A DNA stretch of 26,423 nucleotides, taken from positions 1 through 26,423 of IMG/VR virus record IMGVR_UViG_3300025107_000011. One strand, given 5' to 3'. Each line of letters opens with the position of its first letter. Positions within the stretch are counted from its first letter, which is position 1. Of this stretch, positions 1,373-22,723 are shown one piece after another. Under the pieces are notes generated by a model. It was not told where the DNA came from and searched no databases. It worked only from the letters and a program-made list of their open reading frames with translations. The position numbers and the translations under genes were made by a program. The DNA is from a virus.

Positions 1373-1422
1373 GGAGCTTACGTGCGCGCGAGGTTTTGGA
1401 TTAGACGGGAAACGTTTCCAGC
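1373..1422 (-). promoter_or_regulatory. late promoter-like element 1 (lysis operon)
   Basis: Reading on the minus strand, the palindrome GGAAACGTTTCC (1408-1419) is followed by CCTCGCGCGCACG (1393-1381) and TAAGCTCC (1380-1373). The TAAG ends exactly 31 bases past the palindrome, as at the third copy. There are 63 bases between the palindrome and the holin ATG. The same palindrome precedes three other operons at 60-62 bases. The likely role is an activator-dependent late promoter for lysis genes, analogous to Mu Plys. No good sigma70 -35 hexamer is visible and the putative -10 is poor, which fits dependence on an activator. The rest of 1345-1547 holds no gene I can support. Confidence 0.7.
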
Positions 1423-1547
1423 GTATTGAGCGAGACAGGATTTAGCGAGTATGCGTCCAGCCCCGGTGTGTCGAGTGAAACCACTTTCAAAAGATACGTT
1501 CACCCTGCGATATCACCAGGGCTCAACAATACTTAAATGGAGAACGG

Positions 1548-1787
1548 ATGCGACCAGTAATGACACTGAAAAACCTGTTCATCGCAGTGTTCGTTCTGCC
1601 ATTGCGGATCAGCCTGTTTTTACTGTTATGGGCGATTGAGTGCGTCGGGGATTATTTGGCTTACCTTGTGGAACTGATCCCAGGTCTTGAACCAGATCAG
1701 AAGTATGAGGCACTTCGTGCCAACAAAAGGCGGCAGCAGGTGATTGACGGCATGGGCAAGTTGGCAACCAAGAGGAATTCATCATGA
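1548..1787 (+). CDS. small membrane protein, unrecognised
   Basis: A 79-residue frame starting at an ATG with a GGAG site five to six bases upstream. Residues 8-31 (LKNLFIAVFVLPLRISLFLLLWAI) form a probable membrane segment. The C-terminal half is polar and basic, ending KLATKRNSS. I do not recognise the family. It stands alone on the plus strand between the minus-strand lysis operon and minus-strand accessory genes, and its stop lies six bases from the convergent stop of the zinc-ribbon gene. It could be a prophage accessory (moron) gene, for example one altering the host envelope. The evidence is only a ribosome site, hydrophobic pattern and neat fit, so it may be spurious. A second ATG at 1560 is a possible start but lacks a ribosome site. 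Confidence 0.45.
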   Translation: MRPVMTLKNLFIAVFVLPLRISLFLLLWAIECVGDYLAYLVELIPGLEPDQKYEALRANKRRQQVIDGMGKLATKRNSS

Positions 1788-1792
1788 AAGGC

Positions 1793-2335
1793 CTAGTAAT
1801 CATCAAACCCGCGCCGCGAACTGCTTATCGTCATTACCGCTGGGCCATCGCTTGGCGTATAGACAATCAGCGCCGACTTGCAGCGTTGACAGACAAACTG
1901 ACGATGGTTGTGCGAATGCCACTGGGCGAACTGAAAGATGGACTTATTTCCCGCTTCGTAACATTGACAGCAGAACCATGTATTCGAGTTCACGGCTGGT
2001 GCTGTGTGCGGGTCAACCGGCTTTACAACATAGGCAAACGCACCCGCAGCCACCTCGGTAAGCGCGTACTGTTCGCCCTCCATGCGCCATTCGACAAGAC
2101 GGGCAATCTCTTTCACGGATTTGGCATGTTCCTGTTGCAGCAAAGAATTTTCGCGCATCAACGAGGCCTGCTCCGTCTGGAGCTTAAGTATCAAATTTTG
2201 AGCCGCAATCAAATCATCTGTCGCTTTTATTAAGACTGCATTCACCGCTTCGTAGGTTTTTGCATCGAGCGCGGTTTTGAGCATCTCTTTAATTGTTTTG
2301 ACGCTGGACGCAGCGGCCATCAATTCACTCAGCAT
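1793..2335 (-). CDS. coiled-coil protein with C-terminal zinc ribbon
   Basis: A 180-residue protein. The first 85 residues are helical with a coiled-coil stretch (LILKLQTEQASLMRENSLLQ, 48-67). The C-terminal part carries C122-x2-C125 (a CCQC cluster) and C149-x2-C152 (CQRC), a four-cysteine zinc ribbon with about 23 residues between knuckles. I recall this type, with N-terminal helices, a central segment around GAFAYVVKP and a terminal ribbon, as a common small prophage-associated protein of unknown function. It lies on the minus strand downstream of the repressor pair, so it may be expressed from the lysogen. This would suit an accessory or host-modifying role, but that is inference. An overlapping plus-strand frame at 1784-2233 is judged a shadow. 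Confidence 0.75.
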   Translation of the reverse strand: MLSELMAAASSVKTIKEMLKTALDAKTYEAVNAVLIKATDDLIAAQNLILKLQTEQASLMRENSLLQQEHAKSVKEIARLVEWRMEGEQYALTEVAAGAFAYVVKPVDPHTAPAVNSNTWFCCQCYEAGNKSIFQFAQWHSHNHRQFVCQRCKSALIVYTPSDGPAVMTISSSRRGFDDY

Positions 2336-2391
2336 TTCTTATCCCATCCAGTTTTTGTTCGTTCATTTTGGCTTTCTTTCATTTACGCGGA

Positions 2392-3021
2392 TTAAGGTAG
2401 GAGTAAGGTATAGCTTCGCCCCTTTTTTTCTCGGAGAACATCGCCGATTTCAGCACCGTAATACATGGCATAGCGGAACTGCTCGGCGTTGAATTGCGGA
2501 AACTGTTTAGATAGTGTGCTTTGAACGATGCCGGGATTAGCTGCTATCACAGGTAAGGCTTCGCGCATCACATCAGCGTACAGCGGATCATCTCGCGTGA
2601 ATGCGACCATCAATTCTTTGAATAGCTCAGGGATTGGTGGTGGCGCGTTTTCTTCTCTAACTTTATAAGACAGCTCATGCAGGTTTGTGCGCGCTTCGTT
2701 GTAATCTTTTTCTCGCCAAAGCCTGGCAATTTCATCAATCTGATTTATCCAAAAATCGTCGAAGTATTTTCCGGTTGCTATTTCATTTGCTTTGGCGCGA
2801 AGCCGTGAAGCCAGAATGGCATCCTCTGGCGTTGGCTTCCAGAAACGTGCCATTGCACGTAGCAGCCCTGGTGCAGTTTGACTGGTTGAACTGATCTTTC
2901 CATGTGTCAGATATTGACCGTAACACGATTCGATACGTTGCCGCTCTGCATCGGTGAAGGCGGACAGCCACCAACCTTCCAAGTGGAAGTAGGTAATCAA
3001 GCCGCCGATCTGATACTTCAT
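2392..3021 (-). CDS. unrecognised 209-residue protein coupled to the repressor
   Basis: I do not recognise this family. The ATG at 3021 overlaps the stop of the XRE repressor (ATGA), so the two are almost certainly co-translated. The protein is mostly helical with many charged residues. The last 50 residues (PGIVQSTLSKQFP, then a helix with YAMYYGAEIGDVLREKKGRS) have the rhythm of a helix-turn-helix followed by a wing, so a DNA-binding end is possible; this is pattern-based only. No HExxH metalloprotease motif is present, so it is not an ImmA-type antirepressor. Base composition is more AT-rich than the early and late operons, which suggests a recently exchanged immunity module. It could modulate the repressor, or be a defence or superinfection gene expressed in the lysogen. 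Confidence 0.7.
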   Translation of the reverse strand: MKYQIGGLITYFHLEGWWLSAFTDAERQRIESCYGQYLTHGKISSTSQTAPGLLRAMARFWKPTPEDAILASRLRAKANEIATGKYFDDFWINQIDEIARLWREKDYNEARTNLHELSYKVREENAPPPIPELFKELMVAFTRDDPLYADVMREALPVIAANPGIVQSTLSKQFPQFNAEQFRYAMYYGAEIGDVLREKKGRSYTLLLP

Positions 3022-3338
3022 TTTTTAACTGTCGCTGCCAACAAAGCCTCTACGCCAAGTTGAACATCTGGATGACTTGATCGGAAATTAGAGAGCAGTG
3101 CAATTTCGCGCAGGCTAATTGAGACATCAAGTCGATTGGCACCAGCAAGTATTGTAGGTATGTCAAATCCAGCATTTTTTAAGGCTATCAACACATCCCC
3201 GCCTGGCATCGCGCCGCGTTCGTATTTGCCCCACATCTCACGGCTAACCCCAGCAGCAATACCAGCCTCTGCTTGGCTTAATTTCAAGCGTTTCCGCTCC
3301 AGCTTTAATCTTTCTGAAAAAAGAGAATCTGAATTCAT
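3018..3338 (-). CDS. XRE/Cro-type phage repressor
   Basis: A 106-residue DNA-binding protein, probably the lysogeny repressor. The helix-turn-helix is at about residues 20-41 (LSQAEAGIAAGVSREMWGKY, with ERG following), typical of the lambda cI/Cro class. The C-terminal half is a short helical region rather than a peptidase domain, so RecA-stimulated self-cleavage is not expected. I chose the ATG at 3338 because AAGGGG lies five bases before it; the longer frame from 3398 would run through the operator and lacks a site. It is divergent from the early operon, and the palindrome at 3358-3369 between them is the obvious operator. The 209-residue gene is translationally coupled downstream. Unlike Mu c repressor, it belongs to the XRE class. 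Confidence 0.88.
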   Translation of the reverse strand: MNSDSLFSERLKLERKRLKLSQAEAGIAAGVSREMWGKYERGAMPGGDVLIALKNAGFDIPTILAGANRLDVSISLREIALLSNFRSSHPDVQLGVEALLAATVKK

Positions 3339-3347
3339 AAAAACCCC

Positions 3348-3376
3348 TTGACTTAGAGAACTATAGTTCCCATAAT
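3348..3376 (+). promoter_or_regulatory. early promoter with palindromic operator in the spacer
   Basis: TTGACT (3348-3353) and CATAAT (3371-3376) are separated by exactly 17 bases, a good sigma70 promoter pointing into the early operon with the first ATG 34 bases beyond. Within the spacer lies the perfect 12-bp palindrome GAACTATAGTTC (3358-3369), so a bound repressor dimer would block RNA polymerase. The same palindrome lies 20-31 bases upstream of the repressor ATG at 3338, which allows autoregulation. A minus-strand repressor promoter should also lie here, but I see only weak candidate hexamers. The binding protein is inferred to be the adjacent XRE repressor, possibly competing with the gp16-type protein encoded just downstream. 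Confidence 0.8.
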
Positions 3377-3410
3377 TAACCACCTTAAACAACTTCAACG
3401 GAGATTAACA

Positions 3411-3605
3411 ATGAACCTCGATCAAGTAAAGAAACGCTTTGAGCGTGAAGGAAAAACCTATAGCGGCTGGGCGCGTGAAAACGGCTTCAGTCCGGCAACG
3501 GTCATCGCCGTCGTGAATGGCACAAACAAGGGGCGGCGTGGTGCGGCACATGAAGTGGCTGTCAAGCTCGGCCTGAAGAATCAAAACGAAGCACCTGCAC
3601 GCTAA
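3411..3605 (+). CDS. BcepMu gp16-type small DNA-binding protein (first early gene)
   Basis: A 64-residue basic protein, first in the early operon, with GGAG about six bases before the ATG. A helix-turn-helix is predicted over residues 16-38 (SGWARENGFSPATVIAVVNG). It is followed by the family tail GRRGAAHEVAVKLGLK, which I recognise from the phage-associated BcepMu gp16 family. Its place immediately after the early promoter is that of Ner in Mu, a small protein that turns down early and repressor transcription. That role is inferred from position. The tail recurs in a second gene at 4311-4538, so the phage has two paralogues flanking the KilA-N gene. The first would be expected to bind near 3348-3376. 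Confidence 0.78.
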   Translation: MNLDQVKKRFEREGKTYSGWARENGFSPATVIAVVNGTNKGRRGAAHEVAVKLGLKNQNEAPAR

Positions 3606-3615
3606 GGAGATGACC

Positions 3616-4314
3616 ATGAACCACCTAATTATCGCCGACGACCTGATCCATCAAGACACCGAAGGCCGCTATTGCCTGAACGACCTGCACCTCGCCGCAG
3701 GTGGTGAAAAACGCCACCAGCCGTCTAACTTTATGCGCCTCGACTCAACCATCGCGCTGGTCGCAGAAATAGAGTGTTCCTCAGAAGTGAGGAGCGGCAG
3801 CTCAGATGTGAGCCTTGCTTTTTCAACAGTTCGTGGCAAACACCAAGGCACCTACGTCTGCAAGGAACTGGTTTACGCTTACGCCATGTGGATCAGCCCG
3901 AAGTTCCACCTGCAAGTGATCCGCGCTTATGACGCGCTGGTCACCGGACGGCCCAACGCCGCTCCGATGGATGTGCTGGAACAGGTACTGGTGCGCGTTG
4001 ACCGGCTGTGCGGCGTGGTAGAAAAACTGATCGAAACGCTACCCGCCATTCTTGCATCACAGCGGCCCAAGGTACACCGCCAGCCGATCTACGAAGATGA
4101 CCTGCCCACGATACATGCGATGCGCGAACAAGGAGCCACCCTGCCGGAGATCGCCCGCGCCACAGGTTTCGGCCAGACCATGCTGTATCACGTGTTGAAA
4201 GGCGAATACACCATCGCTCTTGATGGTCGCCTCAAGCGTGTTGCTGGTACCAATGACAAGGTTTCCGCAATCGTGCGCCAGGAAGGTCGGACTGAAGTGG
4301 CGGTGTCAGCATGA
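3616..4314 (+). CDS. KilA-N domain protein with C-terminal helix-turn-helix
   Basis: A 232-residue protein. The KilA-N domain covers about residues 15-110: YCLNDLHLAAGGEKRHQPSN, then FMRLDST, then GTYVCKELVYAYAMWISPKF and LQVIRAYD. These are family hallmarks of a DNA-binding module common in phage antirepressors and regulators. Residues near 163-197 (DLPTIHAMREQGATLPEIAR and GFGQTMLYHVLKG) form a resolvase-like helix-turn-helix. The ribosome site AAGGAG at 3604-3609 overlaps an earlier ATG at 3610, so I place the start at 3616, giving correct spacing. The stop overlaps the next start as ATGA. It lies between two gp16-type genes in the early operon and is probably a regulator or antirepressor. 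Its target is not known from sequence. Confidence 0.85.
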   Translation: MNHLIIADDLIHQDTEGRYCLNDLHLAAGGEKRHQPSNFMRLDSTIALVAEIECSSEVRSGSSDVSLAFSTVRGKHQGTYVCKELVYAYAMWISPKFHLQVIRAYDALVTGRPNAAPMDVLEQVLVRVDRLCGVVEKLIETLPAILASQRPKVHRQPIYEDDLPTIHAMREQGATLPEIARATGFGQTMLYHVLKGEYTIALDGRLKRVAGTNDKVSAIVRQEGRTEVAVSA

Positions 4315-4538
4315 ATAACACAGAGACAAGACCGACCAAGGAAGCCATTGACAAGAAACGCGTCGAGCTTGCAGCGCGCGGCGTCAATCTGCGCGAGATG
4401 TGCGATGCCGCCGGTGTGAGCTACCAAGCCTGCCGCGAGGTGTTGTGCGGAAAAGCTACAGGTCGCCGTGGCAATTCCCATAAAGCCGCCGTGTTCCTGG
4501 GCCTCAAGGCTGACCCTGACAAATTATCTGCTCAATAA
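4311..4538 (+). CDS. second BcepMu gp16-type DNA-binding protein
   Basis: A 75-residue protein whose ATG overlaps the KilA-N stop. The centre (REMCDAAGVSYQACREVLCG, residues 30-49) is a predicted helix-turn-helix. The tail GRRGNSHKAAVFLGLK matches the tail of the gene at 3411-3605 and the BcepMu gp16 family. Outside these motifs the two proteins have diverged strongly, with different N-terminal extensions, so they probably recognise different DNA sites or partners. It may act as a Ner- or Cro-like regulator in the early-to-middle switch; this is inferred. A small gap with AAAGGA precedes the next gene at 4551. Confidence 0.75.
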   Translation: MNNTETRPTKEAIDKKRVELAARGVNLREMCDAAGVSYQACREVLCGKATGRRGNSHKAAVFLGLKADPDKLSAQ

Positions 4539-4550
4539 AAAGGAAACATC

Positions 4551-5666
4551 ATGGCTAATGAAACTACTCACGAAGATGATCCGATAGATCTGCTGGGTGA
4601 AGACTCCGAAACCAACAATATGAACCAGCGGCTGACTGTGATGACTACGGATGCAAATAGCAAAAGTATGACTGCTAGCGAGGACACAAATGCGCTTATT
4701 TATCAGCGTGTCGGGCGCAAGGTAGTGCATGACATGTATTCAAAAATTGGTAACGTAACCAATTTACTAGACCTTCAAAAAATCAAGGAATCTAAGCAAT
4801 ACAAGGGTTTTACAGGATTTGTTGACGGAAAACAGGTAATCATTACCACTTGGAACGATTACTGTAAGTTGATTGAAGGTCGTTCTCGTGAATCCATAGA
4901 TTTGGATTTACAAAATCTAGAAAAGCTCGGCCCTGAATTATTTGAGGCTATGGGGCGCGTCGGGTTAGGCCCTGCCACCATGCGCACTATCCGCCAGCTG
5001 CCGGAAGATGATCGGGCCGTGATTGAACAAGCTGCACAGGCCAACAGCAAGGATGAGATCGTCGATTTGATCGATGGGCTGGTCACCAAGCACACCCGTG
5101 AAAAATCCTCTCTGCATGAAGAAATCAAAGAACTGGGCGAGACGATAGGAAACCACCAGAAGCAGTACGACAAGCTCAGCACCGAGCATGAAAACGTGTC
5201 CCGCGAATATAACCGCCTGACCCGCACAAAGAAGCCCGGCGAATCGACTTACAACGCCCGCACCTTTGAGGTTCGCCATGAATCAGCCGCGCTGGAATAT
5301 GGCTCACGCATCCATGTCGACGCGCTGGAAGTGATGTTCGATGCAGTATTGGGCGAAGACGCTCCTGCACAAGAAAGAGAATTGCAACTCCATGCACTGG
5401 GCCTGGCTGCTGGCGCGCTGTATGCCCGCGCAGAATCGTTATATGCCCGGCTGAAAGACGAGCTTGACGACTTAATGCCGATTCAGCCCTCCAGCAAATA
5501 CATGCTGCATGACGATGAACGCAGCCGCCTGGATGCCAGTGTCTCCATGATCGATGTCAACTTTCACCGCAAAAAAGGCGCGCGTGAATACGAGCGAAAT
5601 GAAGATGCGCCGGTTGGGCGTGGGCGCCCAAAGGGAAGTAAAAACAAGGATAAAGAGGCAGAGTAA
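4551..5666 (+). CDS. coiled-coil protein with AT-hook-like tail, upstream of transposase
   Basis: A 371-residue protein of a type seen in transposable phages but without a function I can name. Residues 70-160 form a compact region (KGFTGFVDGKQVIITTWNDY, then GRVGLGPATMRTIRQLPEDD). Residues 180-225 are a strong coiled coil (KSSLHEEIKELGETIGNHQK). Residues 245-310 are helical. The C-terminus, about 355-366 (VGRGRPKGSKNK), is an AT-hook-like motif that inserts into the minor groove of AT-rich DNA. Its place directly before the transposase, with stop and ATG overlapping by one base (TAATG), suggests a role in DNA transactions such as transposition or replication. The first 120 codons are visibly more AT-rich than the rest, so a recombination joint inside the gene is possible. 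Confidence 0.7.
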   Translation: MANETTHEDDPIDLLGEDSETNNMNQRLTVMTTDANSKSMTASEDTNALIYQRVGRKVVHDMYSKIGNVTNLLDLQKIKESKQYKGFTGFVDGKQVIITTWNDYCKLIEGRSRESIDLDLQNLEKLGPELFEAMGRVGLGPATMRTIRQLPEDDRAVIEQAAQANSKDEIVDLIDGLVTKHTREKSSLHEEIKELGETIGNHQKQYDKLSTEHENVSREYNRLTRTKKPGESTYNARTFEVRHESAALEYGSRIHVDALEVMFDAVLGEDAPAQERELQLHALGLAAGALYARAESLYARLKDELDDLMPIQPSSKYMLHDDERSRLDASVSMIDVNFHRKKGAREYERNEDAPVGRGRPKGSKNKDKEAE

Positions 5667-7348
5667 TGAGCGCGCTCAAATTGCCAAGAGGTATCGTCGT
5701 GAGCCAGCTAACCGAACTTCACCCTGCGCGTCCTGCCTTGCGTGCTGAAATCATCCCGCTCAATGCGCACAAGAAGTCGCTGTTTGAACGTTCGGATGCG
5801 GCTAAAAAACAGACTGCGCTTGACTGGGAGACGGTCGTGCTGGCCGTGAACCGAATCAAGGGAAGTGGCAGTACGACGCAGGCGGTACGACTGTTACTGA
5901 ACTATGCAATCGATGGCGATCTTGAGCCGCATGTATCCCGCGCCTTTTATGCCGTCGCGGTCGGTAAGAACAAGAAGATCGGTCGCTTACCGACCCGTGC
6001 CACCATCTTTGAAAAGCTGGCTTCCTACAAGGAGTCAGGTTTAGACGGCTTGATCAAGGAGCACAGAGGCCGTGTGCGGATTGAGGGCGGCTGGGAAGGT
6101 TTAGCACTGGAACTGTTCAGCCAGCCGAGCAAGCCGGACATATCGGCGGTGCATCGTGTGCTGGTCGAGGTGCAGGGGATGAATTGCAGTTACGACCAGG
6201 TGCGCGCTTATCTGAACGGGTTACCGTCCATGCTGGGTCGGATGAGTCCTGCCCGTATCGGCAAGAACCTCTACCGGCTGACCGAGAAGGCGTACATCCG
6301 CCGCTCGACTGAAAACGCGCTACCCGGCGATGTGTATGTCGCGGACGGTTATCGCGCCGACGTGTATCTGGCACATCCGCTCACAGGCGACATCTACCGC
6401 CCTGAATTGTCGGTGGCGATGGATTTACGCAGCCGCTTTATCGTGGGCTGGCGCGCAGATGAACATGAAGGTGCCTTTGCGGTACAGGGCATGTGGGCTG
6501 AGGCGTTTGCGCGCTGGAACCATGTACCGCCGTTCCTGTATGTGGATAACGGCAGCGGCTACAAGAACTCGTTCGTCGATGACGACGTGACCGGATTTTA
6601 TGCCCGTGTCGGCGTGCAGCAGGTGATTCACTCCATTCCCGGCAACCCGCACGGCAAAGGCTGGATTGAGCAGTTCTTCCGCATCATGAAAGATGATTTT
6701 CTACGCATGTGGATGCCGGCTTTCTACTGCGGTGGCGGCATGGCAGATGAGGTGCGCAACAAAGTGGTGCGCGAAGTGAAGGCCGGCCGCCTGACGCCGC
6801 CGACACTGGCACAGTTTGTCGCTGCGTTTAACGATTGGTTGAGCCGTTACCACACTCGCCCTCACCCGGAAGACAAGCGCGTGACGCGAGGTGAGTTGTG
6901 GGCAGGCCTTGAGCCGATCCCGCCGCATGCCACCGTACAGGAAATGAAGCGCGAACAGGTGCGGCTCACGGTACGCCGTGCCAGCCTCAAGCATTACAAG
7001 CGTGAATACGGACACGCCGACTTGCATGCCTACAACGGGCAGCTGGTGGTGCTGGAATACGACCTGATGGATGACCGTATTGCTGTGATACGTGCGCTGG
7101 ACGGCAAGTGGATCTGCGATGCGAATCTGATCAAGTCTATCGATGCCGTCGTGCCGAATCGACTGGAAGAAAAACGCTTGCTGCGCAAGGAGACGGCCAT
7201 CAAACGGTTACAGAAAAAGATTGATGAACAAACGGCGCGCGGCGGATTGCTGATTGATGCCGAAGCTATCGCACAAGGCGCTTTGGAGGGCGATTACACA
7301 CTGATTGAAGAACAGGACGCACCGATTAACTTGCTTGATTTTGACTAA
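5666..7348 (+). CDS. A: Mu A-like DDE transposase
   Basis: Catalyses end cleavage and strand transfer for phage integration and replicative transposition. The protein has 560 residues; Mu A has 663. N-terminal residues 45-210 hold helix-turn-helix DNA-binding segments (for example LPTRATIFEKLASYKESGLD). The RNase H-like integrase core follows, with the catalytic triad visible as D227 (VYVADGYRADV), D294 (LYVDNGSGYKN) and E335 (GNPHGKGWIEQFFR), so 40 residues separate the second D and E. A Mu-type C-terminal beta region around 430-500 and a basic, helical tail follow; the tail probably contacts the ATPase. It overlaps the preceding gene by one base and is followed 11 bases later by the MuB-type ATPase. 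No transposase-binding end repeats were found in this window. Confidence 0.95.
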   Translation: MSALKLPRGIVVSQLTELHPARPALRAEIIPLNAHKKSLFERSDAAKKQTALDWETVVLAVNRIKGSGSTTQAVRLLLNYAIDGDLEPHVSRAFYAVAVGKNKKIGRLPTRATIFEKLASYKESGLDGLIKEHRGRVRIEGGWEGLALELFSQPSKPDISAVHRVLVEVQGMNCSYDQVRAYLNGLPSMLGRMSPARIGKNLYRLTEKAYIRRSTENALPGDVYVADGYRADVYLAHPLTGDIYRPELSVAMDLRSRFIVGWRADEHEGAFAVQGMWAEAFARWNHVPPFLYVDNGSGYKNSFVDDDVTGFYARVGVQQVIHSIPGNPHGKGWIEQFFRIMKDDFLRMWMPAFYCGGGMADEVRNKVVREVKAGRLTPPTLAQFVAAFNDWLSRYHTRPHPEDKRVTRGELWAGLEPIPPHATVQEMKREQVRLTVRRASLKHYKREYGHADLHAYNGQLVVLEYDLMDDRIAVIRALDGKWICDANLIKSIDAVVPNRLEEKRLLRKETAIKRLQKKIDEQTARGGLLIDAEAIAQGALEGDYTLIEEQDAPINLLDFD

Positions 7349-7359
7349 GGGGAAACAAG

Positions 7360-8325: not shown

Positions 8326-8326
8326 A

Positions 8327-8536
8327 ATGAATAGCAAAATCTGGCGTGATGCCATCCGTCCCTATCAAACGAAAATCAGGAATTTACGCATCCTGGTCTG
8401 TGTGCTGCTGTTGCTCGGCATCTATGGGCTGATGGGACGCTGGGATCGCGCCGCTCAGGAGAGTTCTGCTATGGAATTTCGAGTTCCGTCCCAACAAGGC
8501 TTCATCGGCAACGCAGCGCGCAAGGGGGTGTTGTGA
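8327..8536 (+). CDS. small membrane protein of the early operon
   Basis: A 69-residue protein with a basic N-terminus and one membrane segment at about residues 20-37 (RILVCVLLLLGIYGLMG). A short polar tail follows. The ATG comes one base after the ATPase stop, preceded by a GAGGAGAG site within the ATPase gene. The stop overlaps the next start (GTGA). I do not recognise the family. Its place among early transposition genes suggests a host-interaction function, but nothing in the sequence specifies it. Gene status rests on tight packing, ribosome site and clear hydrophobic segment. Confidence 0.65.
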   Translation: MNSKIWRDAIRPYQTKIRNLRILVCVLLLLGIYGLMGRWDRAAQESSAMEFRVPSQQGFIGNAARKGVL

Positions 8537-8757
8537 GTACAAATAACCTTTGTTCAGTCACCAGCCAGAAGCAATTCGACATGGCTGTAAAACTGGCCTG
8601 TCTTGCTACCGAGCTGGACGAGACAAAAAATGGATTCAAGCTTTACATGAAAATTATGTCAGCTCGTTGTGTGGCATACCTGCACCTGCTGGCGCAGGTA
8701 CTGGCCGGTGAACGTGTCGGCGAGATTTATGCGCCGGATGAAGAGGAGGCAGTGTAA
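8533..8757 (+). CDS. unrecognised small early protein
   Basis: A 74-residue protein starting at GTG 8533 with AAGGGGG six to seven bases before it, overlapping the previous stop as GTGA. It is predicted helical, with an acidic C-terminus ending PDEEEAV. No motif is recognised. The stop codon shares its last base with the next ATG (TAATG at 8755-8759), so translation is probably coupled on both sides. Function unknown. Confidence 0.65.
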   Translation: MSTNNLCSVTSQKQFDMAVKLACLATELDETKNGFKLYMKIMSARCVAYLHLLAQVLAGERVGEIYAPDEEEAV

Positions 8758-9875: not shown

Positions 9876-9880
9876 GCGAA

Positions 9881-9922: not shown

Positions 9923-9941
9923 ACAACTGAAAGGAATCACC

Positions 9942-10562: not shown

Positions 10563-10564
10563 TC

Positions 10565-11020: not shown

Positions 11021-11021
11021 A

Positions 11022-11438
11022 ATGAACACGCCCGATCACAGCTTTGATTATCCGTCGGTGGATGAAGCGCTGTTGCGCTCGTTCCCGCCGGTGCTGCACG
11101 CTGTGGTGCGGGCGTTGGGCTATACCCGTGCGCGGGACTTTTTACATCTGCAAGGTGGCGTCAATGTCTCCATCCCGAAGCATCATAGCCAGACATTGGG
11201 TTTGCAGCCGGATGAACTGAACCGTCTGCGCCACAGCCTAGCGGCTCACCTGGATGCCAATGGGCGGGTCACGCTGCCCAAGGCGGACAAACTCATCATC
11301 CGTGTGCGGGATACGCAGATCCGCCAAGAAAAGCAGCACTCCAGCATCCGCCTGCTGGCGCGCCAGCATAGTCTGAGTTCCAGGCAGATTCAGAACATCT
11401 GTCGGGAAGGCGACGACCGTCAGCTGGATTTATTCTGA
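11022..11438 (+). CDS. mor: Mor/C-type transcription activator
   Basis: A 138-residue protein of the Mor/C family, dimeric activators of Mu middle (Mor) and late (C) promoters. The N-terminal half is a likely dimerisation domain (YPSVDEALLRSFPPVLHAVV). The C-terminal helix-turn-helix spans about 105-128 (LLARQHSLSSRQIQNI) and ends with a short tail DDRQLDLF. The region LQGGVNVSIPKHHSQTLGLQ is typical of Mor. It lies one base after gemA. No other Mor/C gene is seen, so it may serve both middle and late roles. It is followed by a 220-base spacer with the second palindromic late element, which makes it the best candidate to bind the GGAAACGTTTCC sites; this is inference. Confidence 0.85.
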   Translation: MNTPDHSFDYPSVDEALLRSFPPVLHAVVRALGYTRARDFLHLQGGVNVSIPKHHSQTLGLQPDELNRLRHSLAAHLDANGRVTLPKADKLIIRVRDTQIRQEKQHSSIRLLARQHSLSSRQIQNICREGDDRQLDLF

Positions 11439-11586
11439 CTTTGACCTCAAAGCGGGTTCAGTAATAGCGCTAATCGCCTTCGAAAAACGCCTTCTCTCGT
11501 TTAAATGATTTTCAGCAATACCGATGTAGCCTGCCGCATTAACAAGCCCTTCCAGCCCCTCACAGCCGCTTTCGTCCTGACCATCG

Positions 11587-11638
11587 GGAAACGTTTCCAG
11601 CGGTGTCACAAAACCCCCGTCACGCGAAGATGCACTCC
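11587..11638 (+). promoter_or_regulatory. late promoter-like element 2 (head operon)
   Basis: The palindrome GGAAACGTTTCC (11587-11598) is followed by AGCGG and, 31 bases past the palindrome, an AAG ending at 11629 within CACGCGAAG. A CTCC follows at 11635-11638. Sixty bases separate the palindrome from the protease ATG at 11659. This is the position of Mu late promoter PI, which precedes gene I. I see no -35 hexamer and only a poor -10, consistent with an activator-dependent promoter. The spacer 11439-11586 contains no gene I can support. Confidence 0.75.
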
Positions 11639-11658
11639 ACTTACTCAGGAGCTGCACG

Positions 11659-16568: not shown

Positions 16569-16626
16569 GTAGGGTTCCAACCCAACCATATCTGGCGATT
16601 AAAACGTATTCACAGGAGATTTAAAC

Positions 16627-16986
16627 ATGCAACTCAATAATATCCGCACCGTTTCGGTGCCTTCAATCGGTAAGCTGCAACTGGCCGATAAACCGGGTAC
16701 GTTTACGCCGAGCGGTGTGAAGCGCGACCACAAGGGCGGCCGCCTCGCCGAAGACGGCGGTTATACCGAAACGGGTACGCCTGCCAAACTGGAGTTGTCC
16801 ATCAACCTGCATGGCGGCGTGGACGTATCGGCTTTGAATAACATCAAGGATGAAACGGTCACGGTGCGACTGGCCGACGGACATGTACATCATCTGCCGA
16901 TGGCCTTTGTCACCGAGCCGATTGGCGTGGGCGACGGCGAAAGCAAGCTGACCATCATGGCTAACATTTCTGAACAAATTTCGTAG
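16627..16986 (+). CDS. M: tail tube protein, Mu gpM-like
   Basis: A 119-residue protein forming the inner tube through which DNA passes. Recognised by gene order after the sheath and by the family pattern: TVSVPSIGKLQLADKPGTFT at 9-28, a glycine-rich loop (HKGGRLAEDGGYTETG), then PAKLELSINLHGGVDVSALN and GDGESKLTIMANISEQIS at the end. The size fits Mu gpM (118 residues as I recall). An AGGAGA site precedes the ATG. It ends eight bases before the tail chaperone gene. Confidence 0.92.
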   Translation: MQLNNIRTVSVPSIGKLQLADKPGTFTPSGVKRDHKGGRLAEDGGYTETGTPAKLELSINLHGGVDVSALNNIKDETVTVRLADGHVHHLPMAFVTEPIGVGDGESKLTIMANISEQIS

Positions 16987-16994
16987 GAACGACG

Positions 16995-17264
16995 ATGAAA
17001 ACCTTGACGCTTAAACACCCGATAATCGTCGGTAAAACGACGATTGAAGAACTGAAATTCCGCGACCACGCGACTGCAGATGACCTGCTGGCCTTTGATG
17101 AGCGTGGTGCCAACCGTCAGACCATCGTGCTGATCGCCAACCTGACCGGCACCGACGAAGAACTGATTAAAAAACTGCATGTCACGGACTATCGTGCTGC
17201 CGATGCCATCGCCTCAGAGTTGATCAAGCCTGAGGCTGACGAAAAAAACGCGCCCGGGTCCTGA
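16995..17264 (+). CDS. tail assembly chaperone, zero-frame product (Mu gp41-like)
   Basis: An 89-residue protein between tube and tape-measure genes, the position of tail-assembly chaperones (lambda G, Mu gp41). It has LKHPIIVGKTTIEELKFRDH at 6-25 and DDLLAFDERGANRQTIVLIA near 28-47, typical of Mu gp41. These proteins bind the tape measure and keep it soluble while the tube grows. The gene contains A_AAA_AAC at 17243-17249 near its end, which yields a longer product. The zero frame stops at TGA 17262-17264 after DEKNAPGS. Confidence 0.9.
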   Translation: MKTLTLKHPIIVGKTTIEELKFRDHATADDLLAFDERGANRQTIVLIANLTGTDEELIKKLHVTDYRAADAIASELIKPEADEKNAPGS

Positions 17265-17389
17265 CCGCCTGTGCCCTCGTAGCCCGAGGGCTGCATCAGG
17301 ACTTGCGCTATGTAAAATCGCTGCCCCTGGCTGAGTTGTTTATATGGGCGAAGATAGCGGCGGCGATGGAACAAAGGAAGTTTGATTGA
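16995..17389 (+). CDS. frameshifted tail assembly chaperone (about 131 residues)
   Basis: A -1 slip at 17243-17249 joins 85 codons of the chaperone to a second frame that stays open to TGA 17387-17389. The extension reads RARVLTACALVARGLHQDLR and then VKSLPLAELFIWAKIAAAM, followed by a short basic end. The W, A and AM pattern is the usual C-terminal domain of gpGT-type extensions, which contacts the tape measure. The extension has no start codon or ribosome site of its own, and the frame has no other explanation. In Mu the equivalent overlap uses a different (-2) shift as I recall. Joining must be proven by protein or ribosome data. Confidence 0.85.
17243..17249 (+). other. programmed -1 ribosomal frameshift site
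   Basis: In the zero frame the codons read GAA AAA AAC, making the canonical X_XXY_YYZ heptamer A_AAA_AAC. It is 12 bases before the zero-frame stop codon (TGA 17262). The -1 frame continues for 46 codons. A 7-bp stem with five-base loop, GCCCTCG and CGAGGGC (17273-17291), lies 23 bases downstream. The spacer is longer than the usual 5-9 bases, so its stimulating role is uncertain. Confidence 0.9.
17273..17291 (+). other. possible frameshift-stimulating stem-loop
   Basis: GCCCTCG (17273-17279) pairs perfectly with CGAGGGC (17285-17291) around loop TAGCC. It lies downstream of the slippery heptamer, inside the frameshifted extension. There is no T run after it, so it is not a terminator. The role as a stimulator is inference. 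Confidence 0.45.
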
Positions 17390-17426
17390 TAGATGGGCGG
17401 CCAGTTGGTCGCCTTTTTTCATGCCC

Positions 17427-17476
17427 GCTGGAAACGTTTCCAGCCTGAACCCGCCTCGCGCGCACGCGTAAGCTCC
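17427..17476 (+). promoter_or_regulatory. late promoter-like element 3 (tape measure and tail genes)
   Basis: An 18-bp perfect palindrome, GCTGGAAACGTTTCCAGC (17427-17444), is followed by CCTCGCGCGCACG (17454-17466), CG, and TAAGCTCC (17469-17476). The TAAG ends 31 bases past the GGAAACGTTTCC core, as in elements 1 and 2. The tape-measure ATG follows 62 bases after the core. The CCTCGCGCGCACG and TAAGCTCC blocks are shared with element 1 on the opposite strand. It lies in the only true gap (17390-17503) within the tail genes, where a fresh promoter makes sense. Confidence 0.75.
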
Positions 17477-17503
17477 GGACATCCCCCAGTCCTGGAGTCG
17501 TTC

Positions 17504-19576
17504 ATGTCTCAATCCGCCGTTAATGTTGAATTAGCCCTGCGCCTGAAAGACGGCGCAACAGCCGGGCTAAAGTCCGTCACGCAGGCCGCCGTGCAGTCTT
17601 CCGAGAAGACTTCGGCGGCGGCTGTTTCTGCTGCAACCAAGTCCACCAAGGCCGCTGAAGCGTCTGCCAGCAAGTCCGTGGCGGCGATACAAAAGCAGCA
17701 CGACAGCCATATCCAGCTGTATCGGGAGATTGCTTCCGCCCGTGAGCGTCTGGGCGTGCGCTCTGAGCAGGTGATCCGCGATGAGATTCATAAAACAGAA
17801 TCCGCCTACCAGCAGCTTGCGCGTGCCGGCGTGTCCAGTGCGCGTGATCTGGCCCGCGCCCAGGATGCGAGCATCGCCAAGGTGCGGGAATTGCGGCTGG
17901 AGATGGGGGAATTGACCAAGGCGCAACGTCTGCTGCAAGCGGGTCAAGTCGGTGCGGCTGTCACCGCTGGTGCTGTGGTGACAAAGTCGGTTATCGCTAA
18001 CCCGGTCAGGTCTTATGCCGACCTCGAAACTGCTCAGGCCGACTTGAAGATCGCCTTGATGAGCAAGGGCGGGAAAGTATCGGACGCTTATGGCGAAATA
18101 ATGAAGCAAGCGACCGAGCTGGGCAATAAATTACCCGGCTCTACCAAAGATTTCGTCGCGGCGGCGTCTGCCCTGAAAGAACAGGGTATGACGGAACGCG
18201 CGATCACCGGCGGCGGGCTGACAGCATCGGCAAATTTCGGCGTGCTGGCCAACATGGATCAATACCAGTCGGCTACTACTATTGCCAAGATGCGCGAGGC
18301 CTATGGGTTGGGTGCCGATGAATTGCCCGAGATGGCTAACATCATGCAAAAGGCGCGTTATGGCTATGGCATTAGCCCGGATGATTTCAGGGGTGTGGCC
18401 CAGTATGCCGCACCAACTTACAACACACTCGGCTTGACGGGCGCGGATAACGCTAAAAAATTGCTTGCTGTACAGGGTATGGCAGCGGGTGTAGGTCTGG
18501 AAAATACCTCATTCGGCACTAACTTTGCCATGATGCTGCAACGCACTGCGACTATTGATTCACATGTTGGCGAGAATGGCAAGGAAGCCAAAGAGGTGCG
18601 CCAAATACTGGCCGAGTTCGGTATCAAAATGAATTTCTTCAGCAAGCAGGGGAAATTCGCCGGAATCGAGAACATGTTCGCGCAGCTCGAAAAACTCAAG
18701 CCGTTGAGCGATCAGGACAGGATCAGAGTACTGACCAAGATGTTTGGTACCGAAGCGGCTCGGCCTGCTTCTATCATGGTTGAAAAAGGCGGGGTGGCTG
18801 GATTTAAAGAATCATTGGGCAAGCTGGAAAGCCAAGCCGACATGGAAGATCGCATTCGCACGAAAACAAGCACGCTCAGTTCCAAGGGAGAATCATTATC
18901 CGGTACTTGGGAAAACACCAAAGCCAGCGCTGCCAAGGGAATTGGTGAAATGCTGAAAGGCGTGACGGATGGCGTCAATGTGCTCTTGGGCGATTACATT
19001 CAGCCGACTGTCGATAAAAACCCTGGACTCGGGACTGGCGCAATTGCCGGTACGGCTGCCGGGCTGGGATTGGCGACTACGGCCAGTTCGTTGATGGCGC
19101 TGCGGGCAATGATGGGTACGCAAACCGGGCTGCGCATGCTTTCTTCGATTCCCGGCATCACGGCAGTTGCAAATGTCGCCAGCCGATTGCCGGTGGTGCC
19201 TAAAGGAGCCGGGTTGTTCGGTCTCGCCGCCACTGCCGGTGGTGCTGTGCTGTCTTCGGTGGCAGGGGAGGATTCGGTCGCCGCGCGATATGGTTCAGCC
19301 GCGCTGACTGGCGCAGGGCTCGGCGCGACCGTCGGCAGCCTCTTGCCCGGCATCGGGACTGTCGTTGGTGGCGCGATTGGCGGGGTCGGCGGATTGATTG
19401 TCCAGGGCGTCACCGAGGCTTTTAAGTCAGCGCCAGAGCCGAAGCCAACTGAGGTGAACGCGAATCTGACTGTTGGTCTCGCTCCCGGCTTGGTTTTAGT
19501 AGGACAGAAAACGAGTACCACGAGCGGCAATGTGCAGATGCACACCGGTAACTTGTGGCATGGAGCGCCGAGATGA
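17504..19576 (+). CDS. tail tape measure protein
   Basis: A 690-residue protein setting tail length, by its place after the chaperone and by its content. The N-terminal 150 residues are helical with alanine-rich coiled coil (SATKSTKAAEASASKSV). The central region contains ADLETAQADLKIALM and FVAAASALKEQGMTERAITG, typical of TP901-type tape measures. Residues near 500-650 are hydrophobic, glycine- and alanine-rich helices (GTGAIAGTAAGLGLATTASS) that may insert into the host membrane. The ATG at 17504 has a CTGGAG site seven bases upstream. The 37 codons before it are in frame but cross the palindrome, so I exclude them. At roughly 1.5 Angstrom per residue, a tail near 100 nm is expected. Confidence 0.9.
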   Translation: MSQSAVNVELALRLKDGATAGLKSVTQAAVQSSEKTSAAAVSAATKSTKAAEASASKSVAAIQKQHDSHIQLYREIASARERLGVRSEQVIRDEIHKTESAYQQLARAGVSSARDLARAQDASIAKVRELRLEMGELTKAQRLLQAGQVGAAVTAGAVVTKSVIANPVRSYADLETAQADLKIALMSKGGKVSDAYGEIMKQATELGNKLPGSTKDFVAAASALKEQGMTERAITGGGLTASANFGVLANMDQYQSATTIAKMREAYGLGADELPEMANIMQKARYGYGISPDDFRGVAQYAAPTYNTLGLTGADNAKKLLAVQGMAAGVGLENTSFGTNFAMMLQRTATIDSHVGENGKEAKEVRQILAEFGIKMNFFSKQGKFAGIENMFAQLEKLKPLSDQDRIRVLTKMFGTEAARPASIMVEKGGVAGFKESLGKLESQADMEDRIRTKTSTLSSKGESLSGTWENTKASAAKGIGEMLKGVTDGVNVLLGDYIQPTVDKNPGLGTGAIAGTAAGLGLATTASSLMALRAMMGTQTGLRMLSSIPGITAVANVASRLPVVPKGAGLFGLAATAGGAVLSSVAGEDSVAARYGSAALTGAGLGATVGSLLPGIGTVVGGAIGGVGGLIVQGVTEAFKSAPEPKPTEVNANLTVGLAPGLVLVGQKTSTTSGNVQMHTGNLWHGAPR

Positions 19577-20757
19577 TCGCCGCTCCTGCTCTGCCGGGCT
19601 GGGCGCAGCGCATGACCACCGCCTGGTTCAAGGACGACAAGCTCAGTTTTCTGACTGAAAGCCACGACACCAAGGGCGGTCGCCGTCTGGCGATACATGA
19701 GTTCCCCGGCGCTGAAGAACCGGTGGTGGAAGACCTGGGCGGCAAGGCGGGCGAATTCCACCTGAACGCCTATTTCATCGGCCCCGATTACGACCTGTTC
19801 CGCGACAAGTTTTTACTGGCGCTGAATACGCCGGGCGCAGACTGGTTGATGCACCCGTGGCGCGGTCTGCTGTGGGTGCGCGCACATAACTGGTCGGTGC
19901 ACGAGAGTAACGACAAGGGCGGCTATTGCGCGATCAGCGTGGACTTCGTGCCGGGCGGGATGGTGCAAACCATGCTGGTGGATCGCACCGATATGGCCAT
20001 CGCTCGCTTCTCGAAGTTTTCTGATGAATCAGATATGGCCTTTGCGCCGAATCCGATGAATGCGAGCGATTTTGCCAAGTTTCTTGCCGCTGTTTCGGCG
20101 CAGCTCGACAAGTTGCGCGACGTGCTTGCGATGGCGCAATTGCCTTTGACAATGCTGCACCAGGTGATGGGTGTAATTCAGGGGATCAAAGGCGATCTGG
20201 CCACGTTGATGGCCTTGCCGGGCGCTTATGCGGCGGCTCTAAACTCGCTGTCTGGCATGTTGGGGCTCGGCTTGGACTCCGTGGCCACGGATGTGGCGGA
20301 CGTGGCTCGCCCCCGTCTGGTTGCCGCCTTAACAAAGCAGGCAGCCAGCGCACTTCCTGTAGCAGGTTTGCTGGATTATTCGCCCGCGCTGCTCGCTACC
20401 ATCGCCAGCGAGGCCGCATTACGCAGCCGGTTGCTGGTGGTGGCAGCGTTGCAGGCGGCCTTGGCAGATTATCGTGAAGCCTGGGTGCGCGATGCTGCAC
20501 TGGCGAGTGTGGTGACGGCGATCGATGCGCTGCTGCCCGCGATGTCCGACCCTGTCTTCCAGGCGGCTGTATCGGCGCGCACGGCGTTGATCGATGCACT
20601 AATGGCGCAGAACCTTGTCCCGTCGAATTTCCGGGATGTTGTGAACGCCACGCCGGCCACGGTGCTGGCGCATCGCATGGGAATTGATGAAGCGGTGTTC
20701 CTGGCGCAAAACAAACCGCGCCATCCATTATTTGTGCGGGAGCGTGTCTATGATTAA
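19573..20757 (+). CDS. N: DNA circulation protein, Mu gpN-like
   Basis: A 394-residue protein of the Mu N family, a baseplate hub-linked protein with an N-terminal domain named for DNA circularisation. The start is ATG 19573, overlapping the tape-measure stop (ATGA) with GGAG eight bases upstream; an in-frame GTG lies at 19555. The conserved N-terminal domain shows WFKDDKLSFLTESHDTKGGR at 18-37, VEDLGGKAGEFHLNAYFIGP near 52-71 and HPWRGLLWVRAHNWSVHESN near 94-113. The rest, from residue 130 on, is a long helical, alanine-rich domain. It overlaps the next gene by eight bases. Confidence 0.9.
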   Translation: MIAAPALPGWAQRMTTAWFKDDKLSFLTESHDTKGGRRLAIHEFPGAEEPVVEDLGGKAGEFHLNAYFIGPDYDLFRDKFLLALNTPGADWLMHPWRGLLWVRAHNWSVHESNDKGGYCAISVDFVPGGMVQTMLVDRTDMAIARFSKFSDESDMAFAPNPMNASDFAKFLAAVSAQLDKLRDVLAMAQLPLTMLHQVMGVIQGIKGDLATLMALPGAYAAALNSLSGMLGLGLDSVATDVADVARPRLVAALTKQAASALPVAGLLDYSPALLATIASEAALRSRLLVVAALQAALADYREAWVRDAALASVVTAIDALLPAMSDPVFQAAVSARTALIDALMAQNLVPSNFRDVVNATPATVLAHRMGIDEAVFLAQNKPRHPLFVRERVYD

Positions 20758-21796
20758 CCAGGATATTCCCTCCACGGTAGAACTGCGCTTCGACGGGGTA
20801 CGTTACGGTTTTTGGCAGAATGTGGAGATCCACGAATCGATTGACGATCTATGTTCCTCAGTGCGCTTGTCGCTGAGCGGCGACGGCACGGGGACTTCAT
20901 TGCCGCTGACCGTAAATACCGTCGTCACAGTGTGGGTGGATGGTCATCTGGCCGCTACCGTCCGCCCGGACAGTTACCCTCGCCGGATGGACAGCAAGAG
21001 CCATACCATCAGTTTTGACGGGCGTAGCCTGGCGCGTGAGCTGGTCGATTGCCAATATTCGAAAACGCTTTCCGGGCTGAAATTGGGCGAGCTTGTAAAG
21101 CGCATTTGTGAGCCGTTTAAAGTGCCTGTGACAATCGTTGGAGAAACCGCCGTGGTGCCGCATTTTGCGATGCAATGCGAGATGCCCGCCAACGCGCTGA
21201 TCAATGCGGCCAGAGCGGCAAACCTGATGCTGTATGCCACTCCGAATGGAGGATTGATTTTGACTCCTCCGGGCAAGGATGCGCCGGTGGCCACGTTGAT
21301 ATATGGCGAGCATTTCAAGAGTTACGGCATCGTTGAGGATTTCAGACAGCGCTACTCAGACTATGTGGTAAAGGGCTTTGACTATGAAGGCGGGAATGCG
21401 CTCAAAGGATCGGTCAAGGATATTGGAATCAGTTATTTTCGCCCGATGCACATCGTGGCGGACAAGCAGGGCGGTGGATTGGGCGGGTTGAAACGCCGTG
21501 CCGAACTGGAACATAACCGCAGGCTGGCCAGAGCCTTTCGTATCGATTTTACGCTGTGCGGATATCAACACGCGACGGGCTTGTGGGCAGTGAATAAGCA
21601 GGTGCGCGTGGTGATCCCGCACGAGGGGATTGATAGCGTGTTTTTGATCGGAGACCGGACATTCTCGCGCGACGAAAACGGCGGTAGCGTGACCCATTTA
21701 CAGGTGATGCCTCGCGATGCGTTTATCGGCGAAGAAAAGTTAAAACGTAAGCACAAAGCGGGTAGCCGAGCCGCTGCGCCAGGAGCGACAAAATGA
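20750..21796 (+). CDS. P: baseplate hub protein, Mu gpP/gp44-like
   Basis: A 348-residue protein in the place of Mu P (gp44), the trimeric hub that links tube and spike, similar to T4 gp27. I place the start at ATG 20750 with GGGAGCG before it. Features are STVELRFDGVRYGFWQNVEI at 8-27, SISFDG-type strands (SHTISFDGRSLARELVDCQY, residues about 85-104), LKLGELVKRICEPFKVPVTI, and QRYSDYVVKGFDYEGGN. A late segment RRAELEHNRRLARAFRIDFT matches the P family. A basic tail (KLKRKHKAGSRAA) ends the protein. The spike gene overlaps by four bases. Confidence 0.92.
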   Translation: MINQDIPSTVELRFDGVRYGFWQNVEIHESIDDLCSSVRLSLSGDGTGTSLPLTVNTVVTVWVDGHLAATVRPDSYPRRMDSKSHTISFDGRSLARELVDCQYSKTLSGLKLGELVKRICEPFKVPVTIVGETAVVPHFAMQCEMPANALINAARAANLMLYATPNGGLILTPPGKDAPVATLIYGEHFKSYGIVEDFRQRYSDYVVKGFDYEGGNALKGSVKDIGISYFRPMHIVADKQGGGLGGLKRRAELEHNRRLARAFRIDFTLCGYQHATGLWAVNKQVRVVIPHEGIDSVFLIGDRTFSRDENGGSVTHLQVMPRDAFIGEEKLKRKHKAGSRAAAPGATK

Positions 21797-22314
21797 CCGC
21801 AAGCAGTCAAGTTTGGCATCGTTTACAACTGCTCAGCGCTCAGGGAAAAGTCACGTTAGTCGGCGCGGATAAAGTGCAGGTGCAAGTCCTGGATGAAGAG
21901 ACGCTGGAAAATATCGACCGGGTCGAGCCTTATGGATTCAGTTCTCGCCCCAAACCCGGCAGCCGCGCTTATCTGGAATTCCCTGGCGGTGATCGTTCAT
22001 ACGGCGTGGCTCTCGTCATCGGTGACAAGCGCTATCAGATGGATTTAGCAGAGGGCGAAGTGGCGTTGCATGACGACGAAGGCAATCACGTCCTGATGAA
22101 GTGCGGCGGGATCATTGAGGCGAAGGCTGCGACAAAAGTAATCGCTCAGACGCCGATGTTCGAGACCAGCGGAGATGCGAAGATCGGCGGCAAGTTGGTT
22201 GTACTCGGCGGCCTTGAGATTACCGGCACGGCAACAGCCAATGGCAAGAATATCAGCGAGAGCCATACCCACACCAGCACCTTGCCTGGCACGCCTACTT
22301 CGGGAGTAAATTGA
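21793..22314 (+). CDS. baseplate spike protein, Mu gp45-like
   Basis: A 173-residue protein forming the membrane-piercing tail spike. The N-terminal part is an OB-like domain (KVTLVGADKVQVQVLDEETL). The remainder forms the repeated-strand pattern of a trimeric beta-helix (IEAKAATKVIAQTPMFETSG, then GGKLVVLGGLEITGTATANG). The C-terminal tip has H158-T-H160 in SHTHTS, the iron-binding HxH seen at the apex of Mu and P2 spikes. The ATG overlaps the P stop (ATGA) after a GGAG site. This is gene V in function. Confidence 0.93.
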   Translation: MTASSQVWHRLQLLSAQGKVTLVGADKVQVQVLDEETLENIDRVEPYGFSSRPKPGSRAYLEFPGGDRSYGVALVIGDKRYQMDLAEGEVALHDDEGNHVLMKCGGIIEAKAATKVIAQTPMFETSGDAKIGGKLVVLGGLEITGTATANGKNISESHTHTSTLPGTPTSGVN

Positions 22315-22315
22315 T

Positions 22316-22723
22316 ATGTTGAAACTGGTGCAAATTGATAATGGCGTGTTTGATCTGGAGTTCGATGATCCCGCACTGGCCGATGCGGATGCGGATGCGG
22401 CGGTCGCCACGCTGGTATATGCGGCGCTGTTTACCGATGCCGAAGCCCCCGTTAGCCGTGTCGCAGACCGTTACGAGCGGCGTGGCTGGTGGGATGATCC
22501 AAAGGCCGGCAGCGGTTTGTGGCATGTACGCCGCCAGGCATTAGGCAGTGCGGCCCGGCGTGAGACGCTGGATTTGGTGCGCATGGCATTGGTCAGCCAT
22601 GCCCCGGCTCTGTCTGATGTAGTTGTCACCGAGACGGGGGTAGCTGGAAACGTTTCCAGCGTTATTCTGGAAATACGCGCGAAGCATAATGGCCGCCAAT
22701 TCGCAATGAGTGTGCCGCTGTGA
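22316..22723 (+). CDS. baseplate protein, Mu gp46-like (gpW equivalent)
   Basis: A 135-residue GP46-family baseplate wedge protein between spike and J genes. Recognisable parts are the acidic N-terminus (FDLEFDDPALADADADA), then RVADRYERRGWWDDPKAGSG near 48-67, WHVRRQALGSAARRETLDLV near 69-88, and a final beta region (VILEIRAKHNGRQFAMSVPL). It begins one base after the spike stop. The gene also carries the fourth palindromic element (22643-22660), which translates as VAGNVSS here, so DNA and protein needs share this stretch. Its stop overlaps the J start (GTGA). Confidence 0.9.
   Translation: MLKLVQIDNGVFDLEFDDPALADADADAAVATLVYAALFTDAEAPVSRVADRYERRGWWDDPKAGSGLWHVRRQALGSAARRETLDLVRMALVSHAPALSDVVVTETGVAGNVSSVILEIRAKHNGRQFAMSVPL
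22643..22684 (+). promoter_or_regulatory. late promoter-like element 4, inside gp46 (baseplate J and fibres)
   Basis: The 18-bp palindrome GCTGGAAACGTTTCCAGC (22643-22660) is followed by an ACGCGCGAAG block ending at 22684, 27 bases past the core rather than 31. The GTG of the J gene lies 62 bases past the core, the same distance as at the other copies. CATAAT (22685-22690) follows and could be the -10, which would shift the start slightly. It lies in coding sequence, yet the palindrome is kept perfectly over 18 bases, which suggests selection at DNA level. It would drive J and the fibre genes late, analogous to Mu PP. Confidence 0.65.

Follow-up and report, generated by a model that had tools for sequence, protein, structure and literature searches.

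Probable Mor-activated late promoters with a shared palindromic operator, three of them with predicted Shine-Dalgarno-locking hairpins, in a Mu-like phage

In coliphage Mu, the activator Mor binds the middle promoter Pm at a site that is centered at -43.5 and consists of two 5-bp repeats and a G/C-rich 6-bp spacer (PMC4390567). In phage T4, gene e, soc, 49, and I-TevI have late promoters within the 5' arm of a leader hairpin, which in early read-through RNA masks the ribosome-binding site (PMC3014915, PMC2988022). Gene names have so far been the main ground for guesses about late control beyond coliphage Mu. In the present analysis, the palindrome GGAAACGTTTCC was followed up in a 26,423-bp stretch of DNA from a Mu-like phage (IMG/VR record IMGVR_UViG_3300025107_000011, single strand; the whole stretch is referred to as the window), where it precedes the genes for the holin, the protease/scaffold protein I, the tail tape measure protein, and the baseplate protein J. 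The evidence from the sequence comprises the sites themselves, their positions in relatives, the spacing to a -10 element, the lack of a -35 element, a single Mor gene, and covarying hairpin arms. On this evidence, the four palindromes are quite likely the operators of four late promoters that are activated by the phage's Mor-family protein, with hairpins that would lock the Shine-Dalgarno (SD) sequence at three of them.

The operators and their register with the -10 element

The exact 12-mer GGAAACGTTTCC was found four times in the window, with no fifth copy and at least two mismatches everywhere else. The start codon follows at 63 bases for the holin (minus strand), 60 for I, 62 for the tape measure, and 62 for J, and all four copies lie where the original prediction had placed them. 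The chance expectation for the 12-mer in 26,423 bp is about 0.0016, which is the order given before (about 0.002 per strand), but the two strands are not independent because the 12-mer is its own reverse complement. The 12-mer is also only part of the site. The full conserved site is the 18-bp palindrome GCTGGAAACGTTTCCAGC. The copies at 17430 and 22646 have all of it, whereas those of the holin and I are one-sided.

An exact scan of IMG/VR with the 18-mer returned 25 stretches, against about 1 expected by chance on a rough estimate. When the window proteins were placed on these stretches, most proved to be Mu-like loci with the site before the holin, I, or the tape measure, or within gene W before J. 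The scan is blind to genes, which makes this agreement independent. A second, motif-independent set of 38 loci (636 kb) was picked by the major head protein or, in bacterial genomes, by a Mor alignment. Against 1.2 occurrences expected under a first-order Markov model, these loci contain the pattern xGAAAYRTTTCx 61 times. Of these sites, 56 precede hol, I, tmp, or J, and two of the remaining five sit at the edge of a locus, in the place expected for the holin. The original prediction stood or fell with the presence of the palindrome at these positions in close relatives, and it passes this test. Exactly four copies of KGAAAYRTTTCM per record are present in the window and in six relatives; some relatives (G024, G027, and G028) have degenerate or fewer sites. 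The hosts of the relatives include Thiobacillus, Ralstonia, Ferriphaselus, Gallionella, Herbaspirillum, Rhodoferax, Azoarcus, and Methylomonas. As a single-sequence query in IMG/VR, the Mor protein of the window found no relative; searches with the head protein and with a Mor alignment retrieved them instead.

The spacing to the -10 element is equally constant. The 89 oriented sites collapsed to 58 nonredundant ones, and in 57 of these, the 12-mer is followed at exactly 27 bp by a NANNNT hexamer (runner-up offset, 8), compared with a count of at most 11 at any offset in shuffled sequences. The same position holds the hexamer in 36 of 37 sites in the motif-independent loci and in 50 of 51 sites when J is left out. 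A -35 element (TTGACA) was sought at the right distance, and none was found (2.3 of 6 matches). An A/T stretch resembling an UP element was also sought, and a mild rise only was seen (52 to 54% A+T at 21 to 30 bp upstream of the core versus 41% background), which is not claimed as such an element. Across the 58 sites, the center of the operator can be any pyrimidine-purine step (CG, CA, TG, and TA were seen), and the flanks favor GC(T/G)G and C(A/C)GC; the invariance of GAAA and TTTC was fixed by the search pattern itself. A dyad in place of the -35 element and a -10 element at a fixed distance are both traits of promoters activated by Mor or C, and both were found here by computation.

In the promoter geometry proposed originally, a TAAG or GAAG at a constant distance was confirmed for three copies, whereas the GAAG assigned to J, with its end at 27 bases, was the wrong element and was rejected as its -10, since CATAAT sits at the shared 27-bp position. 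With CATAAT taken as the -10 of J, all four promoters are in register. The palindrome center, expected near -44 where Mor and C bind, was computed at about -45.5 if the hexamer spans -12 to -7, compared with -43.5 for Mu Mor (PMC4390567); the expectation holds broadly, with the fixed spacing and the lack of a -35 element. RNA would be expected to start about 6 to 8 bp past the hexamer.

The J promoter lies within W. Its operator covers the codons for the conserved W residues Gly-Asn-Val-Ser and uses the rare codons GGA (6%), GTT (15%), and TCC (17% usage), which also occur at this site in loci picked without the motif. Therefore, the DNA is conserved here, and not the peptide alone. Coding and putative regulatory constraints overlap in W at 22643-22690 of the window.

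Two of the stretches with the 18-mer (L015, 54.7 kb; L019, 12.4 kb) carry no homologue of the window genes. L020 and L024 come from an unrelated 58-kb virus (IMGVR_UViG_3300047300_000852), which has 21 copies of GGAAACGTTTCC, mostly as TGGAAACGTTTCCA, along its whole length. A Mor gene was sought in this record, and none was found. The record represents a separate system of many operators, perhaps stoperator-like, with almost the same palindrome.

Leader hairpins over the Shine-Dalgarno sequence

At the holin, I, and the tape measure, the promoter appears to be built into a hairpin, a layer missed by the original prediction. The 5' arm of the hairpin contains or adjoins the -10 region, and its 3' arm carries the SD sequence (Table 1). 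Among relatives, the arms covary before the tape measure (AAGCTCC/GGAGCTT or AAACTCC/GGAGTTT) and the holin (AACCTCC/GGAGGTT and others), and before I they read GCTCC/GGAGC or CCTC/GAGG. The mean longest stem is 8.4 bp for tmp and 7.9 bp for hol, versus 3.9 in shuffles, and stems became shorter after the arms were swapped between loci. A hairpin of the same form and of unrelated sequence is present at the holin and W of Burkholderia phage KS10 and at the holin of Curvibacter phage TJ1.

The predicted folds of the two kinds of RNA differ. In read-through RNA, the mean probability that the SD sequence is unpaired was 0.00 (tmp), 0.03 (hol), and 0.08 (I). Without the 5' arm, in RNA modeled as starting 7 bases past the -10 element, it rose to 0.33, 0.21, and 0.30, respectively. 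For 287 other genes of these phages, the mean was 0.38, and 4% of them were at 0.05 or less. Late RNA is expected to start downstream of the 5' arm, and the hairpin would therefore form only in read-through RNA, so that in predicted folding, as in the T4 locks, the SD sequence is paired only in RNA from upstream promoters. RNA folded in this way would hide its SD sequence, and the hairpin would thus lower translation of read-through RNA. RNA from the late promoter would begin within the hairpin, without the 5' arm, and would hence be translatable. No terminator was seen in the window between Mor and I, and the minus strand showed none from the lysogeny genes to the holin, so early or lysogenic transcripts could otherwise express the protease and the holin.

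Alternatively, the leader hairpins may be nothing but intrinsic terminators of the upstream operon. In most relatives, a T-run comes after the tape-measure stem (7.4 T in 10 nucleotides), which suggests that this stem may terminate as well. However, the holin and I leaders keep the stem with no T-run (2.9 and 2.5 T in 10), and the tape-measure leader of the window itself lacks one and has a separate terminator-like hairpin with a T-run at 17395-17414, just upstream of the operator. With this terminator, the tape-measure promoter probably opens a new transcription unit. A role as terminators only is therefore rather unlikely, about one chance in a few, and both functions may hold at the tape measure.

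The Mor-family activator and its alternatives

The candidate activator is the Mor-family protein encoded by the last gene of the early operon. It matches PF08765 over residues 81 to 132 (28.4 bits versus a cutoff of 24.9) and the late-activator family phrog_836 (1e-17), and its gene follows GemA and lies just before I. The C-terminal half with the helix-turn-helix aligned with Mu C by hhalign (probability 92, E value 5e-7). With VIA-align, the predicted structure matched Mu C (9l0x; Z score of 7.2, rank 1) and Mu Mor (1rr7; Z score of 6.5, rank 3) over 48 to 49 residues, with unrelated helix-turn-helix proteins nearly equal; Foldseek alone gave no significant match. The 15 records of the window's group hold one Mor-family gene per genome. 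A second, C-like member was sought in the same records and none was found, although a strongly diverged C could be missed.

In the proposed mechanism, Mor, made last in the early operon, would bind each operator as a dimer about 45.5 bp before the start, substitute for the absent -35 element, and recruit host sigma-70 RNA polymerase to the poor -10 element (NANNNT). Thereby, one activator alone would directly turn on the operons for lysis, head, tail, and baseplate; a second one, such as Mu C, would have no part in it. The four operators are very probably bound by an activator of the phage's own, and Mor is the protein to which that role would fall.

Operators in phages with other Mor proteins were consistent with this role. 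TJ1 and KS10, whose Mor recognition helix differs from that of the window, have palindromes of the TGGTGAA-N4-TTCACCA type before the holin, I, and tail genes, with NANNNT at 25 bp in seven of seven cases. With this spacing, the center falls at -43.5, just where Mor sits on Mu Pm (PMC4390567). In Alteromonadaceae phage B23, three late genes have CCTGAA-N4-TTCAGG, and the hexamer follows at 26 bp in three of three (the offsets in TJ1, KS10, and B23 were counted by eye). GAA-N4-TTC is common to the operators of the window, TJ1, KS10, and B23. An arginine in the recognition helix (R121 in the window) is kept in the Mor proteins of all four and is lacking in Mu Mor and C; as a guess, R121 reads the invariant G of the operator. 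Pseudomonas phage MP22 and Mu were also searched de novo for palindromes, and neither yielded a repeated site that was convincing. It is somewhat probable that a broad Mu-like group combines a single Mor-type activator and a readable operator code (a GAA-N4-TTC core, clade-specific flanks, and a spacing of 25, 26, or 27 bp) with late promoters in SD-locking stems, in which the -10 region would serve as both promoter and anti-SD arm and gate translation of the holin, protease, and tape measure.

At some late genes of B23, TJ1, and KS10 (L068, 10242-10300 and 17837-17895; L070, 18569 and 25571; L069, 18126), an ATG lies only 6 to 7 bases past the predicted -10 element. Therefore, the late mRNAs of these genes may be leaderless; if so, the annotated start of KS10 gp28 (protease) is too early.

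Among the alternatives for the protein that binds the sites, the best placed is another phage activator that has escaped recognition. Binding by Mor is inferred from sequence, the late promoters of Mu use C and not Mor (PMC4390567, PMC4461284), and part of the genome is missing on the left. The window opens within a spanin-like gene (1-300). Judging by KS10, whose minus strand carries the terminase, portal, and F genes past the lysis genes, these missing genes would lie left of position 1, so that the window covers only part of a genome of some 35 kb. Against another activator stand the lack of a second Mor/C-family gene in the 15 records, the change of operator sequence and spacing where Mor proteins differ, and the place of Mor at the end of the early operon, nearest to the first site. 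We regard this alternative as improbable.

A lysogeny repressor or a host LacI-type regulator that silences the late genes in the lysogen is less probable still. LacI-family operators have a CG dyad at their center, which the core AAACGTTT resembles, and the phage encodes a helix-turn-helix repressor at 3018-3398. However, the repressor/ner control region has no copy of the palindrome, the dyad center varies (CG, CA, TG, and TA), and the fixed 27 bp to a -10 element with no -35 element suits an activator more than a repressor. A shared host regulator is unlikely because the hosts of the relatives range from Thiobacillus to Methylomonas. Least credible of all, and rejected, are RNA hairpins, terminators, and recombination or packaging sites: the 18-mer could make a 7-bp RNA stem and its four copies are dispersed, but no T-run follows, many variants are asymmetric on one side, the GAAA/TTTC core is invariant as in a protein site (albeit required by the search pattern), the J copy lies within coding DNA, and the register with the downstream -10 element is exact.

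Several points weigh against Mor-activated promoters with SD locks. The structural matches to Mu C and Mor are moderate (Z scores of about 7) and cover the C-terminal 49 residues only, and Mor is tied to the sites by genome position, family, and covariation across few Mor groups. The computed center would shift with the assumed placement of the hexamer, and the J hexamer, CAYAAT, doubles as codons for the conserved His-Asn of W. As for the locks, the J leader has no hairpin and its fold is not special, the I hairpin is the weaker one (z score of -2.2 in the window), and several I leaders are partly closed even without the 5' arm.

The features of the window are collected in Table 1. A small protein with collagen-like Gly-x-x repeats, encoded at 24878-25108, adjoins the tail fiber gene.

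Table 1. Genes, putative regulatory sites, and predicted leader hairpins in the window
Feature	Position	Strand	Basis or remark
Operator, holin/lysis promoter, GCTGGAAACGTTTCCCGT	1405..1422 (core 1408-1419)	-	Exact 12-mer match; also there in L005, L007, L013, L023, L028, L047, L051
Operator, protease I/head promoter	11584..11601 (core 11587-11598)	+	Exact 12-mer match, conserved in relatives
Operator, tape-measure promoter, perfect 18-bp palindrome	17427..17444 (core 17430-17441)	+	Exact match, conserved in relatives
Operator, baseplate J promoter, perfect 18-bp palindrome inside W coding sequence	22643..22660 (core 22646-22657)	+	Exact match, codon usage
-10 element TAAGCT, holin	1375..1380	-	27 bp past 12-mer
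-10 element GAAGAT, protease I	11626..11631	+	27 bp past 12-mer
-10 element TAAGCT, tape measure	17469..17474	+	27 bp past 12-mer
-10 element CATAAT, J, inside W	22685..22690	+	27 bp past 12-mer
Leader hairpin, holin; -10 region forms the 5' arm, SD GGAG is in the 3' arm	1347..1381	-	-10.6 kcal/mol, z -5.1, 0/200 shuffles
Leader hairpin, I; bases just past -10 pair with SD AGGAG	11631..11656	+	-9.0 kcal/mol, z -2.2
Leader hairpin, tape measure; -10 region pairs with SD GGAG	17472..17498	+	-13.0 kcal/mol, z -3.3
Mor-family activator, last early-operon gene	11022..11438	+	PF08765 above cutoff; phrog_836; proposed binder of all four operators
Holin, PF13272, leads lysis operon	1060..1344	-	Family match
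Mu-like protease/scaffold I, PF10123	11659..12666	+	Family match
Tail tape measure protein	17504..19576	+	Family match
Baseplate J, GTG start	22720..23766	+	Family match

Comparison with known systems

The original proposal, a regulon of late promoters under a Mor/C-type activator in a Mu-like phage, is supported by the same genes in relatives, the fixed spacing, the lack of a -35 element, and the single Mor gene. The proposed likeness of its targets to Mu Plys, PI, and PP extends to lysis and I and is loose for PP, which in Mu precedes P, whereas the promoters here precede the tape measure and J. The regulon had also been taken for a previously undescribed one, and GGAAACGTTTCC was in no open-access paper searched. 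In the open-access literature, no Mor sites were found described for other Mu-like phages, subscription papers (such as the BcepMu and B3 genome papers) being outside this scope, and the KS10 paper (PMC2628397) does not describe the palindromes. The parts are known, namely, Mor/C activation in Mu and promoter-in-hairpin locks in T4. The open literature was not found to describe their combination, the layout of four sites and a single activator without C, or the operator and its conservation across a large group.

The present analysis defines the operator, the geometry of the promoters, and a probable activator for dozens of beta- and gammaproteobacterial phages and prophages, which makes the whole regulon predictable from sequence and directly testable. 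The shift of operator and spacing with the Mor sequence by clade offers a natural data set for the Mor/C recognition code, and RNA polymerase complexes of the Mor/C family have recently been solved (9l0x and 9l0y, from the structure search). In addition, the hairpin layer would explain how the holin of a temperate transposing phage stays silent in read-through RNA until late, a logic that T4 reached independently.

KS10 and TJ1 share with the window the genome layout, the single annotated or syntenic Mor gene, palindromes before the holin, I, and tail genes, a -10 element at a fixed distance, and holin leader hairpins; they differ in the type of palindrome and in the spacing. As for Mu Mor at Pm, the window has a dyad in place of the -35 element, a plain -10 element, and a Mor-family protein from the last early gene. 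However, Mu Mor serves one middle promoter, whereas one operator sequence, unrelated to that of Pm, serves the four late promoters here. As with Mu C (Plys, PI, PP, and Pmom), one activator would control several late operons, including lysis and protease I, and among solved structures, Mu C is the nearest relative of the Mor protein in the window. Unlike the Mu C system, the relatives have no separate C gene, the other two promoters precede the tape measure and J rather than P and mom, and the operators are near-identical to each other. In place of the three-tier cascade of Mu, in which Mor leads to C, there seems to be neither a separate middle tier nor a C gene. The hairpins follow the same promoter-in-hairpin logic as those of T4 gene e, soc, 49, and I-TevI, here from predicted folds. 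The phage and the promoter type are unrelated to those of T4, the -10 element itself is part of the arm or adjoins it, and the predicted device recurs at three of the four late promoters.

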